Part shown: one piece after another, positions 8,338 to 11,910 of the stretch
Layout: each line of letters starts with the position of its first letter
Position numbering within the stretch: position 1 is the stretch's first letter
Source of the DNA: Pirellula sp.
GTDB lineage: Bacteria; Planctomycetota; Planctomycetia; Pirellulales; PNKZ01
Assembly: GCA_013822735.1 (NCBI GenBank)
Contig: PNKZ01000002.1
Coordinates: forward strand, 434,001 to 498,000
Reading direction: 5' to 3'
Length of the DNA: 64,000 nt
Translations under genes and position numbers: made by a program
Notes under the pieces: model-generated
What the model was told of the DNA's origin: nothing
The model's database searches: none
What the model saw: only the letters and a program-made list of their open reading frames with translations

Positions 8338-8441
8338 CGTCCAGGGAGCCGGCTCGCCACCGCTGCTGGTTCGACTACAATAAGCGCTCGCCGTAGTTGC
8401 GGCCGCTCCCCACACGCCCCGGTTGTTAAAAGGAAGCCTTC

Positions 8442-8915
8442 GTGAACGCACCTGAAGTGAATCGTCGCAAATTCAACGAATTGCTCGCCGGCGCATTCGG
8501 CGGCTTGGTAGTGGGCGCGAGCCTTGGCTGCACCGGCGAGGCCGGCAAAGGGGGTTCTGCGGGAGCATCGGCTGCGGGTGGCTCGGCGGCTGCAAAAGGC
8601 GAAACGGCCTCGGCAGGCGAAAAGCATGCTTGCCGCGGCTTGAACGAGTGCAAGGGGCTCGGAACCGGCGGCTCAAACGCATGTGCCGGGCAGGGGATGT
8701 GCGCCAACGTAAAGGCCCACTCCTGTGCGACGCAGAACGATTGCAAGAATCTCGGCGGTTGCGGTGCCAAGGCCGGCGCCAACGACTGCAAAGGTCAAGG
8801 CGGCTGCTCGGTGCCGATGCATGAGGGGGCTTGGGAAACGGCCCGAAAGCATTTTGAAGAGCGGATGAAGAAGGCCGGCAAGACCGTCGGCCCGGCGCCG
8901 GCGAAGGCAAGCTAA
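8442..8915 (+). CDS. Cys-rich exported precursor of a bufferin-type (MNIO-modified) peptide
   Basis: The gene encodes 157 residues from a GTG start with AGGAAG about 7 bases upstream. The N-terminus has a twin-arginine signal (NRRKF, 7-11) followed by a Gly/Ala/Leu-rich hydrophobic stretch and Cys30, which could be a lipid-attachment residue although the lipobox (SLGC) is poor. After a Gly/Ala/Ser linker comes a core with nine Cys at 64, 70, 81, 87, 95, 101, 107, 116 and 122. These form five CX5C units (CRGLNEC, CAGQGMC, CATQNDC, CKNLGGC, CKGQGGC). A basic tail rich in Lys and Ala ends the protein. Immediate neighbours are DUF692 and DUF2063 genes, which is the standard arrangement of bufferin biosynthesis, where Cys are converted to thiooxazole-type metal ligands. 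A metal-sequestering role is inferred. Confidence 0.82.
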
Positions 8916-8973
8916 GGGCGGTGCCGCGCCGGTTGTTCGAGTCGACGGCGAGTGTCTAGTCCGAGGTTTTCCT

Positions 8974-9900
8974 ATGTTCGAAAATCTAGGACTTGGCGTC
9001 GGACTGCGAGCAGCGCACTTCGGCTATCTGCAGGAGCATTGGCCGGCAGTCGATTGGTTCGAGATTATCTCGGAAAACTTCATCGATTCCGGCGGTCGTC
9101 CGCGTTACGTGCTCGAGCAACTTGCCGAGCGCTATCCGATTGTCATGCACGGCGTGTCGCTCTCAATCGGCGGCACCGACCCGCTCGACTTGGATTACTT
9201 GGCGAAGGTTCGCAATCTTGCGTGCGCGACACGGGCCCGATGGGTGTCGGACCACGTCTGTTGGACGGGCGTCGCCGGTCGCAATACTCATGACTTGCTC
9301 CCCTTGCCGTTCAACGAAGAGTCGCTGCGCCGTACGGCCGAGCGCATTCGCACGGTACAAGACTTTTTAGAGCGGCCGCTGACGTTGGAGAACCCAAGCA
9401 GCTACGTGACGTTTCAGTCGTCGACGATGAGCGAATGGGAGTTCTTGTCGCGACTCGTCGATGAGTCGGGCTGCAAGCTTCTGCTCGACGTCAACAATGT
9501 ATACGTGTCGAGTGTGAACCACGATTTTGATGCGCTGGAGTATATTCGCCGCATCCCGCACCAAGCGGTAGTGCAGTTCCACTTGGCCGGGCATACACGA
9601 GCGGTGAGGCATTTGGTGGATACGCATGACGGGCCGGTGATCGACCCTGTGTGGGAACTCTATCGCGAGGCCCACCGTCTCACCGGCGGTGCCGCCACGC
9701 TCTTGGAATGGGATGCTCGCATCCCGGAATTCTCGGTCGTACACGCCGAGGTGCTCAAGGCCCGCGAAGTGCTGACGACGGGATTGCCGCCCCGCGTGCC
9801 GGTCGCGCCTTCACCGAACTCAGCGCCTCATGCCGACTTTGGTGACGATGAGGCGATGGTTCCGCATCCGTTGCACCATCTCACGGCCGAGGTGCTATAG
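8974..9900 (+). CDS. DUF692 multinuclear non-haem iron oxidative enzyme (MbnB/BufB-like)
   Basis: This 308-residue TIM barrel belongs to the DUF692/MNIO family (MbnB in methanobactin, BufB in bufferin synthesis). These enzymes use two or three iron atoms and O2 to modify Cys of a precursor peptide. Conserved acidic, His and Asn positions are present: H59 in [11 protein letters not shown]94 in SDH, E139 in LENPSSY, D172 in DVNN, H183, H203 and H207 in FHLAGH, H218, and E245 in LEWD. It starts at the ATG at 8974, 58 bases after the precursor, and ends 2 bases before the DUF2063 gene, so the three genes form an operon. The extra ~40 C-terminal residues, rich in Pro and His, are not part of the core fold. 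Confidence 0.93.
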
Positions 9901-9902
9901 AG

Positions 9903-10817
9903 ATGCCTGAGTCGGTACCTAAGAACGCTTTGTCTTCGCCGTCGCTCGACGCCTTACAGCGTTGGTTCCAAGCCGCCACGACGCATCCCGGAGGCATCAC
10001 TGCGGGTGCCCAATCCGCTCCGGCTGTTGACGCGATTCCGGCGACGACTGTTGACGAGATCGTTTGCCGGTCGTCGCGACAATCTGCGGAGGAACGCGTC
10101 GCGGTCTATGCCCAGGCGTATTGGGCTCGATTGCTCGAATGTTTACGCGAGGAGTTTCCCGTCCTTCGCGCCACGGTCGGCGAAGAGGCCTTTGATGGGT
10201 TGGCCGTCGGCTATCTCATTGCCCATCCTTCAACGAGCTATACGCTCGGCCGGCTTAGCGAGACGTTCCCGGAGTATCTGCGGTCGACAATCGCGGCTGA
10301 TTCCGGCGTCGATCCGTTCTCCGAACTCGTGGTCGACTTGGCCCGGTTGGAACGAGCCGCCAACGATGTGTTCGATGCATCGGGAGGTGAAACGCTCGGG
10401 TTTCTCACCGTGCAGCAGTTGGATCGCGTAGCCCCTGAGCAGCGAGGTGCGTTAAATCTCGCGCTGTTGCCTACTGTCCGGCTGTTGTCGTTTCACACGA
10501 ACGTGAACGACTTCTTCACCGCCATGCGTACTTCTGCCGAATCGGCGCCGACGCCGGAAATTTGTCGTACGTTCGTCGCTCTGACGCGACGTGACTACAT
10601 CGTTCGCAGGCTCTCGCTCACCGAGATGCAGTACGAGCTGCTGACGGCCATCGCAACCGGGCAGTCGTTGAGCGACGCGTTGCGTATCGTTTGCGAACGG
10701 CAAACGAGTTCGCAAATAGAGACGATAGCCGCCGCTGAACCGGTCGATTCCGAAACGTTGCGGACCTGGTTCGCCGACTGGGCACGAGTGGGCATTTTCG
10801 CGGCTTTAGAACCGTAA
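9903..10817 (+). CDS. DUF2063 MNIO partner protein (BufC/HvfC-like)
   Basis: The product has 304 residues. Its N-terminal half (~14-140) carries the DUF2063 signature, with LQRWFQAATTHP, then ERVAVYAQAYWARLLECL and EEFPVLRATVGEEAFDGLA. DUF2063 proteins bind the precursor peptide and present it to the DUF692 enzyme. The C-terminal half is weakly conserved and contains a winged-helix-like segment (LTEMQYELLTAIATGQSLSDALRIV). It starts 2 bases after the DUF692 stop and is clearly co-transcribed. No DoxX-like or cytochrome gene, often present in such clusters, follows; the next gene is an isomerase-like protein after a 127-base gap. Confidence 0.88.
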   Translation: MPESVPKNALSSPSLDALQRWFQAATTHPGGITAGAQSAPAVDAIPATTVDEIVCRSSRQSAEERVAVYAQAYWARLLECLREEFPVLRATVGEEAFDGLAVGYLIAHPSTSYTLGRLSETFPEYLRSTIAADSGVDPFSELVVDLARLERAANDVFDASGGETLGFLTVQQLDRVAPEQRGALNLALLPTVRLLSFHTNVNDFFTAMRTSAESAPTPEICRTFVALTRRDYIVRRLSLTEMQYELLTAIATGQSLSDALRIVCERQTSSQIETIAAAEPVDSETLRTWFADWARVGIFAALEP

Positions 10818-10944
10818 TTCGAGGTGGTCGGGCGGCTGGTTTTCGCGGCGTCGGCAGACGATAATGTGCGGCACGTGCGACCACGACCCTTGGTCGCCGA
10901 TTTTCATCGTTGCACATTTCGTCGTTCGACCCATCAGGTTCATT

Positions 10945-11910
10945 ATGCCGGCCTTGCCTCGACGTGATCTTCTCATGCACTCCGCCGGAATTCTGGGGGG
11001 GGCCGCATTGGCCGCCGTTGTCGGAACGTCGACCAGCACGGCTGCCGTTCCGGATTCCGTGCGACCGGCCGACGAGCCGTTTGGATACTGTCTCAACACC
11101 AGCACCATCCGCGAGAAAAAGCTCGGCATCGTCGCGGAGTTGGAGATTGCGTCGCGCGTCGGCTATCACGCCGTCGAGCCGTGGATGCGGCAGTTGGCGG
11201 AGTATGTGCAGGCGGGCGGTTCGCTCAAAGATCTCGGCAAGCGCATTCGCGACCTCGGACTAACGATCGAAAGCGCCATCGGCTTTGCGGCATGGATCGT
11301 CGACGACGACGCGGCCCGCGCGAAAGGTTTGGAAGAAGCCAAGCGCGATATGGCGGTCTTGGCGGAGATCGGCGGCAAGCGCTTAGCCGCACCGCCCGTG
11401 GGTGCGCAGAAGATCACGGGAATGGATCTGTTCGTCATCGCCGAGCGATATCGCAAGCTTCTGGAACTCGGCGACGAGATGGGCGTGGTACCGGAAGTGG
11501 AGGTCTGGGGGCATTCGCAAACGCTCGGTCGCTTGGGAGAAGCGGTGTTCGTCGCCGTAGAAAGCGGTCACCCGAAAGCGTGCCTACTGCCCGACGTGTA
11601 TCACATCTTCAAAGGAGGGAGCGATTTCACCGGACTGAAGCTCCTGAGCGGTTCGGCGATTCACGTATTCCACGTGAACGACTATCCGGCCGAACCGGCG
11701 CGCGTCGAACAGACGGACGCGCATCGCGTGTACCCCGGCGACGGCGTTGCCCCGCTTACACAAATCTTCCGCGACTTGCACGCCTCGGGTTTCAACGGCT
11801 ACCTCTCGCTTGAACTATTTAATCGCGACTATTGGCAGCAAGACCCGGAACTGGTTGCGAAGACCGGTTTGGAAAAGACGCGCGCCGCAGTCCGTAAGGC
11901 GTTCGCCTAA
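10945..11910 (+). CDS. TAT-exported sugar phosphate isomerase/epimerase-like TIM barrel
   Basis: This 321-residue protein starts with a twin-arginine signal (MPALPRRDLLMHSAG, then a hydrophobic Gly/Ala stretch) followed by an AP-endonuclease-2/xylose-isomerase-like TIM barrel. Family features include GYHAVEPWM near the first strands, VPEVEVWGHSQTLGR, LPDVYHIFKGG and HVFHVNDYPAEP, with Glu, His and Asp at expected metal-binding positions. Such proteins isomerise or epimerise sugars or inosose; the substrate here is unknown. The open frame begins at 10864, but the ATG at 10945 puts the TAT signal at the terminus. It may be transcribed with the MNIO cluster or from the 127-base gap. Confidence 0.8.
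   Translation: MPALPRRDLLMHSAGILGGAALAAVVGTSTSTAAVPDSVRPADEPFGYCLNTSTIREKKLGIVAELEIASRVGYHAVEPWMRQLAEYVQAGGSLKDLGKRIRDLGLTIESAIGFAAWIVDDDAARAKGLEEAKRDMAVLAEIGGKRLAAPPVGAQKITGMDLFVIAERYRKLLELGDEMGVVPEVEVWGHSQTLGRLGEAVFVAVESGHPKACLLPDVYHIFKGGSDFTGLKLLSGSAIHVFHVNDYPAEPARVEQTDAHRVYPGDGVAPLTQIFRDLHASGFNGYLSLELFNRDYWQQDPELVAKTGLEKTRAAVRKAFA

Follow-up and report, generated by a model that had tools for sequence, protein, structure and literature searches.

Operon structure

Three genes lie on the forward strand of the window, by which we mean the whole 64,000-nucleotide stretch of Pirellula sp. DNA that was analysed. The first (8442..8915) has a GTG start, stands 7 bases behind an AAGGA Shine-Dalgarno-like site (8430..8434, forward strand) and encodes a 157-residue precursor. 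The NCBIfam BufA2 model and family conservation point to a divergent BufA2-type protein with a nine-Cys core. The second (8974..9900, ATG start) encodes a 308-residue MNIO (DUF692), a bufferin maturase BufB according to PF05114 and NCBIfam MNIO_BufB. The third (9903..10817, ATG start) encodes a DUF2063 partner protein of 304 residues, PME type 1 and BufC/HvfC-like, recognised from PF09836 and an AF2 model. There are 58 bases between the precursor and MNIO genes and 2 bases between the MNIO and DUF2063 genes. The order is that of bufABC: precursor, BufB-type MNIO, DUF2063 partner. A first-pass annotation of this DNA had described a three-gene cluster with a Cys-rich precursor of this length, and its coordinates and gaps agree with the ORFs.

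The precursor and the MNIO are both single-copy, and a search of the source genome found no second copy of either. Purifying selection acts on the precursor: its dN/dS to three copies from the same genus is 0.10, 0.11 and 0.23. The adjoining genes in the window encode a MoxR-type AAA ATPase, a DUF4159 protein, a TIM-barrel protein and a GTPase. No copper gene or regulator was recognised among the flanking genes examined, and this counts against a bufferin explanation. Directly after the operon (10864-11910, forward strand) comes a Xylose isomerase-like TIM barrel protein, which likewise bears a Tat-like signal (PRRDLLMHSAGILGGAALAA). It is probably unrelated to the operon. We argue that the cluster is most likely bufferin-type (BufA2/Buf2, a 'Cys-Lys' captophorin) and a member of a known family.

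The precursor is a divergent BufA2

The precursor contains ten Cys (residues 30, 64, 70, 81, 87, 95, 101, 107, 116 and 122). The last nine make five CX5C pairs, two of which share one Cys, just as had been read from the sequence before. Five such pairs were reached in only 87 of 200,000 shuffles of the core. These nine Cys in C-x5-C spacing are the presumed MNIO targets, and they lie in a core peptide that runs from HAC to SVP (8625..8819, forward strand). The spread of the gene, its purifying selection and the conservation of these Cys tell more than the shuffles: eight of the nine are invariant across 43 aligned family members and the ninth (C70) is kept in at least 90%. Behind the core is a predicted C-terminal helix (residues 128-144, 8823..8873, forward strand) with conserved residues W131, R135, F138 and E139. 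It is found in the 9- and 11-Cys Tat-type precursors, but not in the 12-Cys precursors. The AF2 model has a mean pLDDT of 53.7 with an unstructured core; the helix is a block at about 80-86.

No Pfam family matches the precursor. Its only NCBIfam match is BufA2 (NF050166) at 19.2 bits (E 0.001), which is under the cut-off of 60 and counts against the assignment. An HMM search against bufferin families was among the checks that the first-pass annotation had proposed. The relatives make the case stronger. All 19 aligned relatives match NF050166 (best E 1.2e-7), and the plasmid clusters with the nearest MNIOs have clear BufA2 precursors of 88-102 bits, such as VKCFGVNGCKGQNDC..NACKGQGEC. No plasmid relatives of the window precursor itself were found. 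Beside the MNIO of other planctomycete classes stands a 12-Cys precursor with four C-x5-C-x5-C triplets, and two such planctomycete relatives pass the BufA2 cut-off at 67.3 and 62.0 bits. The scores are graded: 67.3 bits for a 12-Cys Sec form, 57.5 for a 12-Cys Tat form (RRDF), 48.5 for an 11-Cys Tat form (RRDF) and 19.2 for the 9-Cys Tat form of the window.

The C-x5-C-x5-C arrays of Buf2 proteins hold 6 or 12 conserved Cys, and the window precursor has nine. However, its nine Cys map onto the 12-Cys array with three positions lost, and 11-Cys intermediates exist. Since the alignment maps nine onto twelve, the five CX5C units would be a worn four-triplet Buf2 array with a C-terminal helix added. 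We read the graded series in the order 12 -> 11 -> 9, which the sequences suggest. By core homology the precursor is a divergent BufA2 (Buf2), apparently a derived variant in Cys number and not a new architecture. It had been proposed that the product class may be new in its repeat number, and the alignment and graded scores speak against that claim. They also rule out a new unrelated family, and a DUF2282 Buf1 is ruled out because neither the precursor nor anything else in the genome matches DUF2282.

Buf2/BufA2 (BUF_6/12Cys, NF050166) with BufB2-BufC2 is the closest known system. It shares with the window the C-x-G-[LIV]-N-x-C-K units in C-x5-C(-x5-C) spacing, the bufABC order, a BufB-family MNIO and the DUF2063 partner. 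The window differs in its nine core Cys (12 minus three), the conserved helix, the Tat-type signal, the lack of a linked DoxX and an Ala next to the MNIO catalytic Asp. Only part of the core Cys precede Lys or Arg, which counts against the bufferin explanation.

Signal peptide and export route

The first 29 residues (8442..8528, forward strand) form a predicted Tat-type signal peptide with RR at residues 8-9 (bases 8463-8468). The RR is invariant across the 43 aligned family members, and the stretch RR-F-L-AA-GG is strongly conserved as a whole. A Tat-type class defined by the rule RR-x-[FLV] has 117 members. F stands at +3 in 112 of them, N, S, D or T precedes the RR in 116 and Leu is at +6 in 109. 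Among the precursors with 8-9 Cys, 111 of 116 were classed as RR-type by script. The five exceptions are L083_51, which has RREF on inspection, one Ferritin-like fusion without a signal and three triplet-type arrays that were counted short. Of the 15 precursors with at least 12 Cys, 11 lack an RR-x-[FLV] signal, and most have short Lys n-regions and a lipobox Cys. The first-pass annotation had proposed a TAT- rather than a Sec-type export signal. This holds up well, since RR-x-F is near-universal in the 9-Cys precursors whereas the 12-Cys homologues mostly have Lys-type Sec or lipoprotein signals.

The h-region has a mean hydrophobicity of 1.63 in the RR class versus 2.09 in the Sec-type homologues (Mann-Whitney p = 2e-7, for related sequences that are not independent), and it is richer in Gly in the RR class. 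Some relatives match the TIGR01409, TIGR02811 or Rieske Tat signal models. Two observations count against Tat. The curated Tat signal models have no match to the window protein, and its motif, RRKFNELL, is without the classical Leu at +4, the family having Leu at +6 instead. Still, the sequence features of a Tat substrate are found here: an invariant RR, a hydrophobic +3 residue, a weakly hydrophobic h-region and a TatC encoded in the source genome. Buf2 has a Sec signal peptide, and in the window precursor its place is taken by the RR-x-F signal of low hydrophobicity.

One can also suppose that transport goes by Sec and that RR-x-F-x-x-L is kept because the partner protein (RRE) reads it as a leader. 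According to PMC13419390, citing Junger 2026, the MNIO-partner complex uses the Sec signal of bufferins and HvfA as its leader. The replacement of the +4 Leu of the Tat motif by polar residues and the strong conservation of the whole stretch would fit this as well. However, homologous 12-Cys precursors beside related MNIO/DUF2063 pairs mostly do without RR. So do the Ferritin-like fusion precursors (L225, L168), though their MNIOs sit in the Tat-type clade, and the low hydrophobicity and high Gly content of the h-region fit Tat. We consider Sec transport unlikely for these reasons. A leader role and a Tat role of the RR stretch are in any case compatible and not exclusive. Export of the window bufferin by Tat is strongly indicated by its sequence, and a putative Tat-type signal with RR-x-F is present in virtually all 9-Cys precursors of the Planctomycetota and Verrucomicrobiota, mostly with a lipobox Cys.

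Cys30 (8529..8531, forward strand) stands apart from the core. It is at the end of the h-region in the lipobox SLGC, and ASLGC (26-30) fits only the permissive lipobox rule, with Ser at -3. The same-genus precursor copies have a Cys at this position too. Since 81 of 111 RR-type relatives with 8-9 Cys have [GAS]C behind the h-region, most RR-type precursors would be Tat lipoproteins. The window precursor is probably one as well, with SLGC as a weak lipobox and Cys30 as the probable lipidation Cys outside the core. About 16% of Buf2 are predicted lipoproteins (PMC12452194). The lipidated RiPPs DybA and NedA (PMC12636315) share a lipoprotein-type signal and cytoplasmic modification before export, but they carry ordinary lipoprotein (signal peptidase II) signals whereas the window family has a twin-arginine n-region.

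Maturase and partner protein

The MNIO matches PF05114 at 356 bits and exceeds the MNIO_BufB cut-off of 310 bits with a score of 349.7. With this score and an intact active site it has what defines a BufB maturase. The nearest solved sequence is 3BWW, a Histophilus MNIO close to HvfB. The iron-site residues N174/N175 (DVNN), D216 and H218 (DTH), the catalytic D247, and H59, H94, E139, H203 and E245 hardly vary among 83 Tat-type enzymes, 11 Sec-type planctomycete enzymes and four BufB2 enzymes. What the DVNN, DTH and catalytic Asp residues do is known from work on HvfB and FonB (PMC12668002, PMC13419390). In the window MNIO the first selectivity Arg is retained (R12) and the second is gone (A13), a pattern described for Cys-Lys and DUF2282 enzymes (PMC12668002).

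The residue after the catalytic Asp is Asp in Cys-Lys MNIOs and Phe in Lys-Cys MNIOs (PMC12668002). 3BWW has Phe there, three of the four plasmid BufB2 enzymes have Asp, and 75 of 79 Tat-type enzymes have Ala, which counts against the bufferin explanation. The near-fixed Ala, set against the Asp of BufB2, might mean that the MNIO makes something other than 5-thiooxazole, suited to another metal. We find this improbable. Swaps at this residue in FonB still gave 5-thiooxazole and changed substrate tolerance alone (PMC12668002), and the window MNIO passes the BufB cut-off.

Another close known system is the Cys-Lys group of the captophorins, or thiooxazole metallophores (PMC12668002). These share with the window an MNIO with a PME1 partner, a precursor with Cys-Lys motifs (NDCK, NACKG-like) and the same state of the two selectivity Arg. 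The window differs in that just part of its Cys precede Lys/Arg and its selectivity residue is Ala, not Asp. Buf_EGKCG/oxazolins (HvfA, fontiphorin) and DUF2282 Buf1 have the MNIO-DUF2063 pair and an exported Cys-rich precursor in common with it, but the window is without the EGKCG motif and without DUF2282, and those systems have Sec signals.

On the MNIO tree, a quick one with several long branches, the enzymes beside all 9- and 11-Cys Tat-type precursors fall in one clade of 89 rows that is starred as supported (97). Over the tree the Sec/Tat label needs to change at least four times, and a few 12-Cys lineages carry RR on their own.

The DUF2063 protein matches PF09836 at 74.1 bits and misses the HvfC equivalog cut-off (45.5 versus 142). 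A sequence search of the PDB returned nothing for it, so a fold search was made with its AF2 model (pLDDT 92.5). Below an E-value of 0.001 the fold matches only TglHI entries (E 5e-5, 12% identity) and NGO1945 (3DEE, E 7e-4). As modelled, the DUF2063 protein has a known MNIO partner fold, that of PME type 1.

Distribution and gene neighbourhoods

Some MNIO is encoded in 84 of 294 planctomycete genomes. In a set of 57 genomes the precursor gene is present in 22, the source genome included. When a BufB-grade MNIO is taken as one of over 340 bits, 21 of the 57 have both it and the precursor, one has the precursor alone (G021), one the MNIO alone (G006, 75% complete) and 34 have neither (Fisher p = 2e-13). 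A precursor family never linked to DUF692 would have spoken against the bufferin-type link that had been proposed, and the two are found together in 21 of the 23 genomes that have either. The order precursor-MNIO-DUF2063 recurs in most loci. A cultured relative, Blastopirellula marina DSM 3645 (L120), carries this cluster as well.

Two locus surveys differ in how they are to be read. The 80 precursor loci drawn from genome contigs are mostly from Planctomycetota with a few from Verrucomicrobiota, and their RR share is biased because similarity to the Tat type was how they were chosen. The MNIO-anchored survey is fairer, although restricted to high-scoring MNIOs. It has a family precursor alongside 49 of 60 loci, about 30 of them of RR type.

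One could instead see in the precursor a metallothionein-like lipoprotein, secreted and Cys-rich, whose plain thiols bind metal while the MNIO modifies few or none of its Cys. Some genomes do have extra precursor copies away from any MNIO, and one has precursors and no MNIO. The core also differs from the tested MNIO substrates, and FonBC left NACKG and HNDCK motifs unprocessed (PMC12668002). However, co-occurrence of the precursor with a BufB-grade MNIO is near-perfect and the gene order is fixed. FonBC, for its part, acts on a different class of substrates, and in Caulobacter Buf2 the mass loss per Cys is that of a bufferin (PMC12452194). We give the plain-thiol explanation little credence and keep to a modified peptide.

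Several loci have unusual arrangements. The genome with orphan precursors, G021, is 96% complete and has two copies (L052, L032), one of them DoxX-fused, and no MNIO was found in it. G034 has a second precursor copy (G034:C103:9700-9990, L044) followed by an MNIO fragment that matches positions 2-98 only and has an in-frame TGA. This is either a decaying duplicate cluster or an assembly error. Tandem precursor genes, each with its own RR signal, stand before one MNIO at L116, L049, L056 and L104. No conserved neighbour genes were found beyond the three, except a thioredoxin-like gene (Thioredoxin_7, weak YHS) that recurs near the precursors of several Gimesia-type loci (L069, L073, L080, L087, L123 and others).

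DoxX is a frequent but not universal partner of bufferins. The nearest one on the contig is about 187 kb from the operon, in keeping with the earlier remark that no DoxX is linked. Yet DoxX is present in the family as fusions in three relatives, where a DoxX domain (61-72 bits), the RR stretch and the bufferin core make single ORFs (L032:9917-11137 and L033:9843-10955 on the reverse strand, L109:1695-2816 on the forward strand). Because the RR stretch comes after the DoxX membrane domain, these sequences suggest Sec/Tat dual targeting. Another fusion type joins a Ferritin-like domain (PF12902) to a bufferin-like Cys core in proteins of 672 and 775 residues without an evident signal, just before the MNIO (L225:1466-3481 and L168:603-2930, both forward). 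L168 is a Pseudoalteromonas megaplasmid. Its MNIO groups inside the planctomycete clade on a long branch, a placement that suggests transfer.

Proposed function

Bufferins, oxazolins and fontiphorin are copper-binding peptides with Cys-derived 5-thiooxazoles (-4 Da, 305 nm; PMC12452194, PMC12668002), and by homology we expect the same MNIO chemistry here. The precursor would be made in the cytoplasm. The DUF2063 partner would bind its N-terminal region and present the Cys-rich core to the MNIO, and the multi-iron centre of the MNIO would oxidise several of these nine Cys, with 5-thiooxazoles as the most likely outcome (about -4 Da each). Once finished, the peptide would reach the periplasm via Tat and not Sec, given the low-hydrophobicity RR-x-F signal. 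There a lipid on the Cys that follows the signal would probably anchor it, in the window protein and in most relatives, and it would buffer excess copper or another soft metal. We infer each of these parts, that is the Cys chemistry, partner binding, Tat transport, lipidation and copper function. We think it quite likely overall that this is a bufABC-type RiPP operon for a Cys-modified, Tat-exported, copper-buffering peptide. A Pseudomonas plasmid BufA2 cluster adjoins a copper-resistance multicopper oxidase gene, which may be an indirect pointer to copper. Against this, copper protection is doubted, or not established, for a related Microbulbifer product (PMC12538549).

The Tat signal could have a second role. 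Tat accepts folded, finished proteins. By our own reasoning this is why a Tat signal could solve the problem of timing, since how premature Sec export is avoided before bufferin modification is an open question (PMC12452194). The signal may double as the RiPP leader: the partner would hold it during Cys modification, and Tat would export the bufferin once it is modified, perhaps with metal already bound, which would put maturation before export. We offer this as a tentative proposal that is somewhat more apt to be wrong than right.

Implications

What is new here is the putative Tat-type, mostly lipobox-bearing bufferin lineage, which stands up to the wider survey; the system is otherwise known in kind. 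The open-licence PMC papers yielded no report of a Tat-exported bufferin, of Tat with a RiPP or of MNIO with Planctomycetes, though the supplementary tables of MNIO surveys could already list such precursors. If our reading is true, copper-buffering-type RiPPs would extend through the Planctomycetota and Verrucomicrobiota, for which the same papers gave no earlier description. The planctomycete/verrucomicrobial clade would be one of Tat-exported RiPPs, a class without a report in that literature, and the DoxX-RR-bufferin fusions would be membrane proteins targeted by both Sec and Tat. The swap from Sec to Tat with core, enzyme and partner kept would be a natural experiment on the premature-export question, and the 12-Cys Sec forms versus the 9- and 11-Cys Tat forms would be the set to compare.
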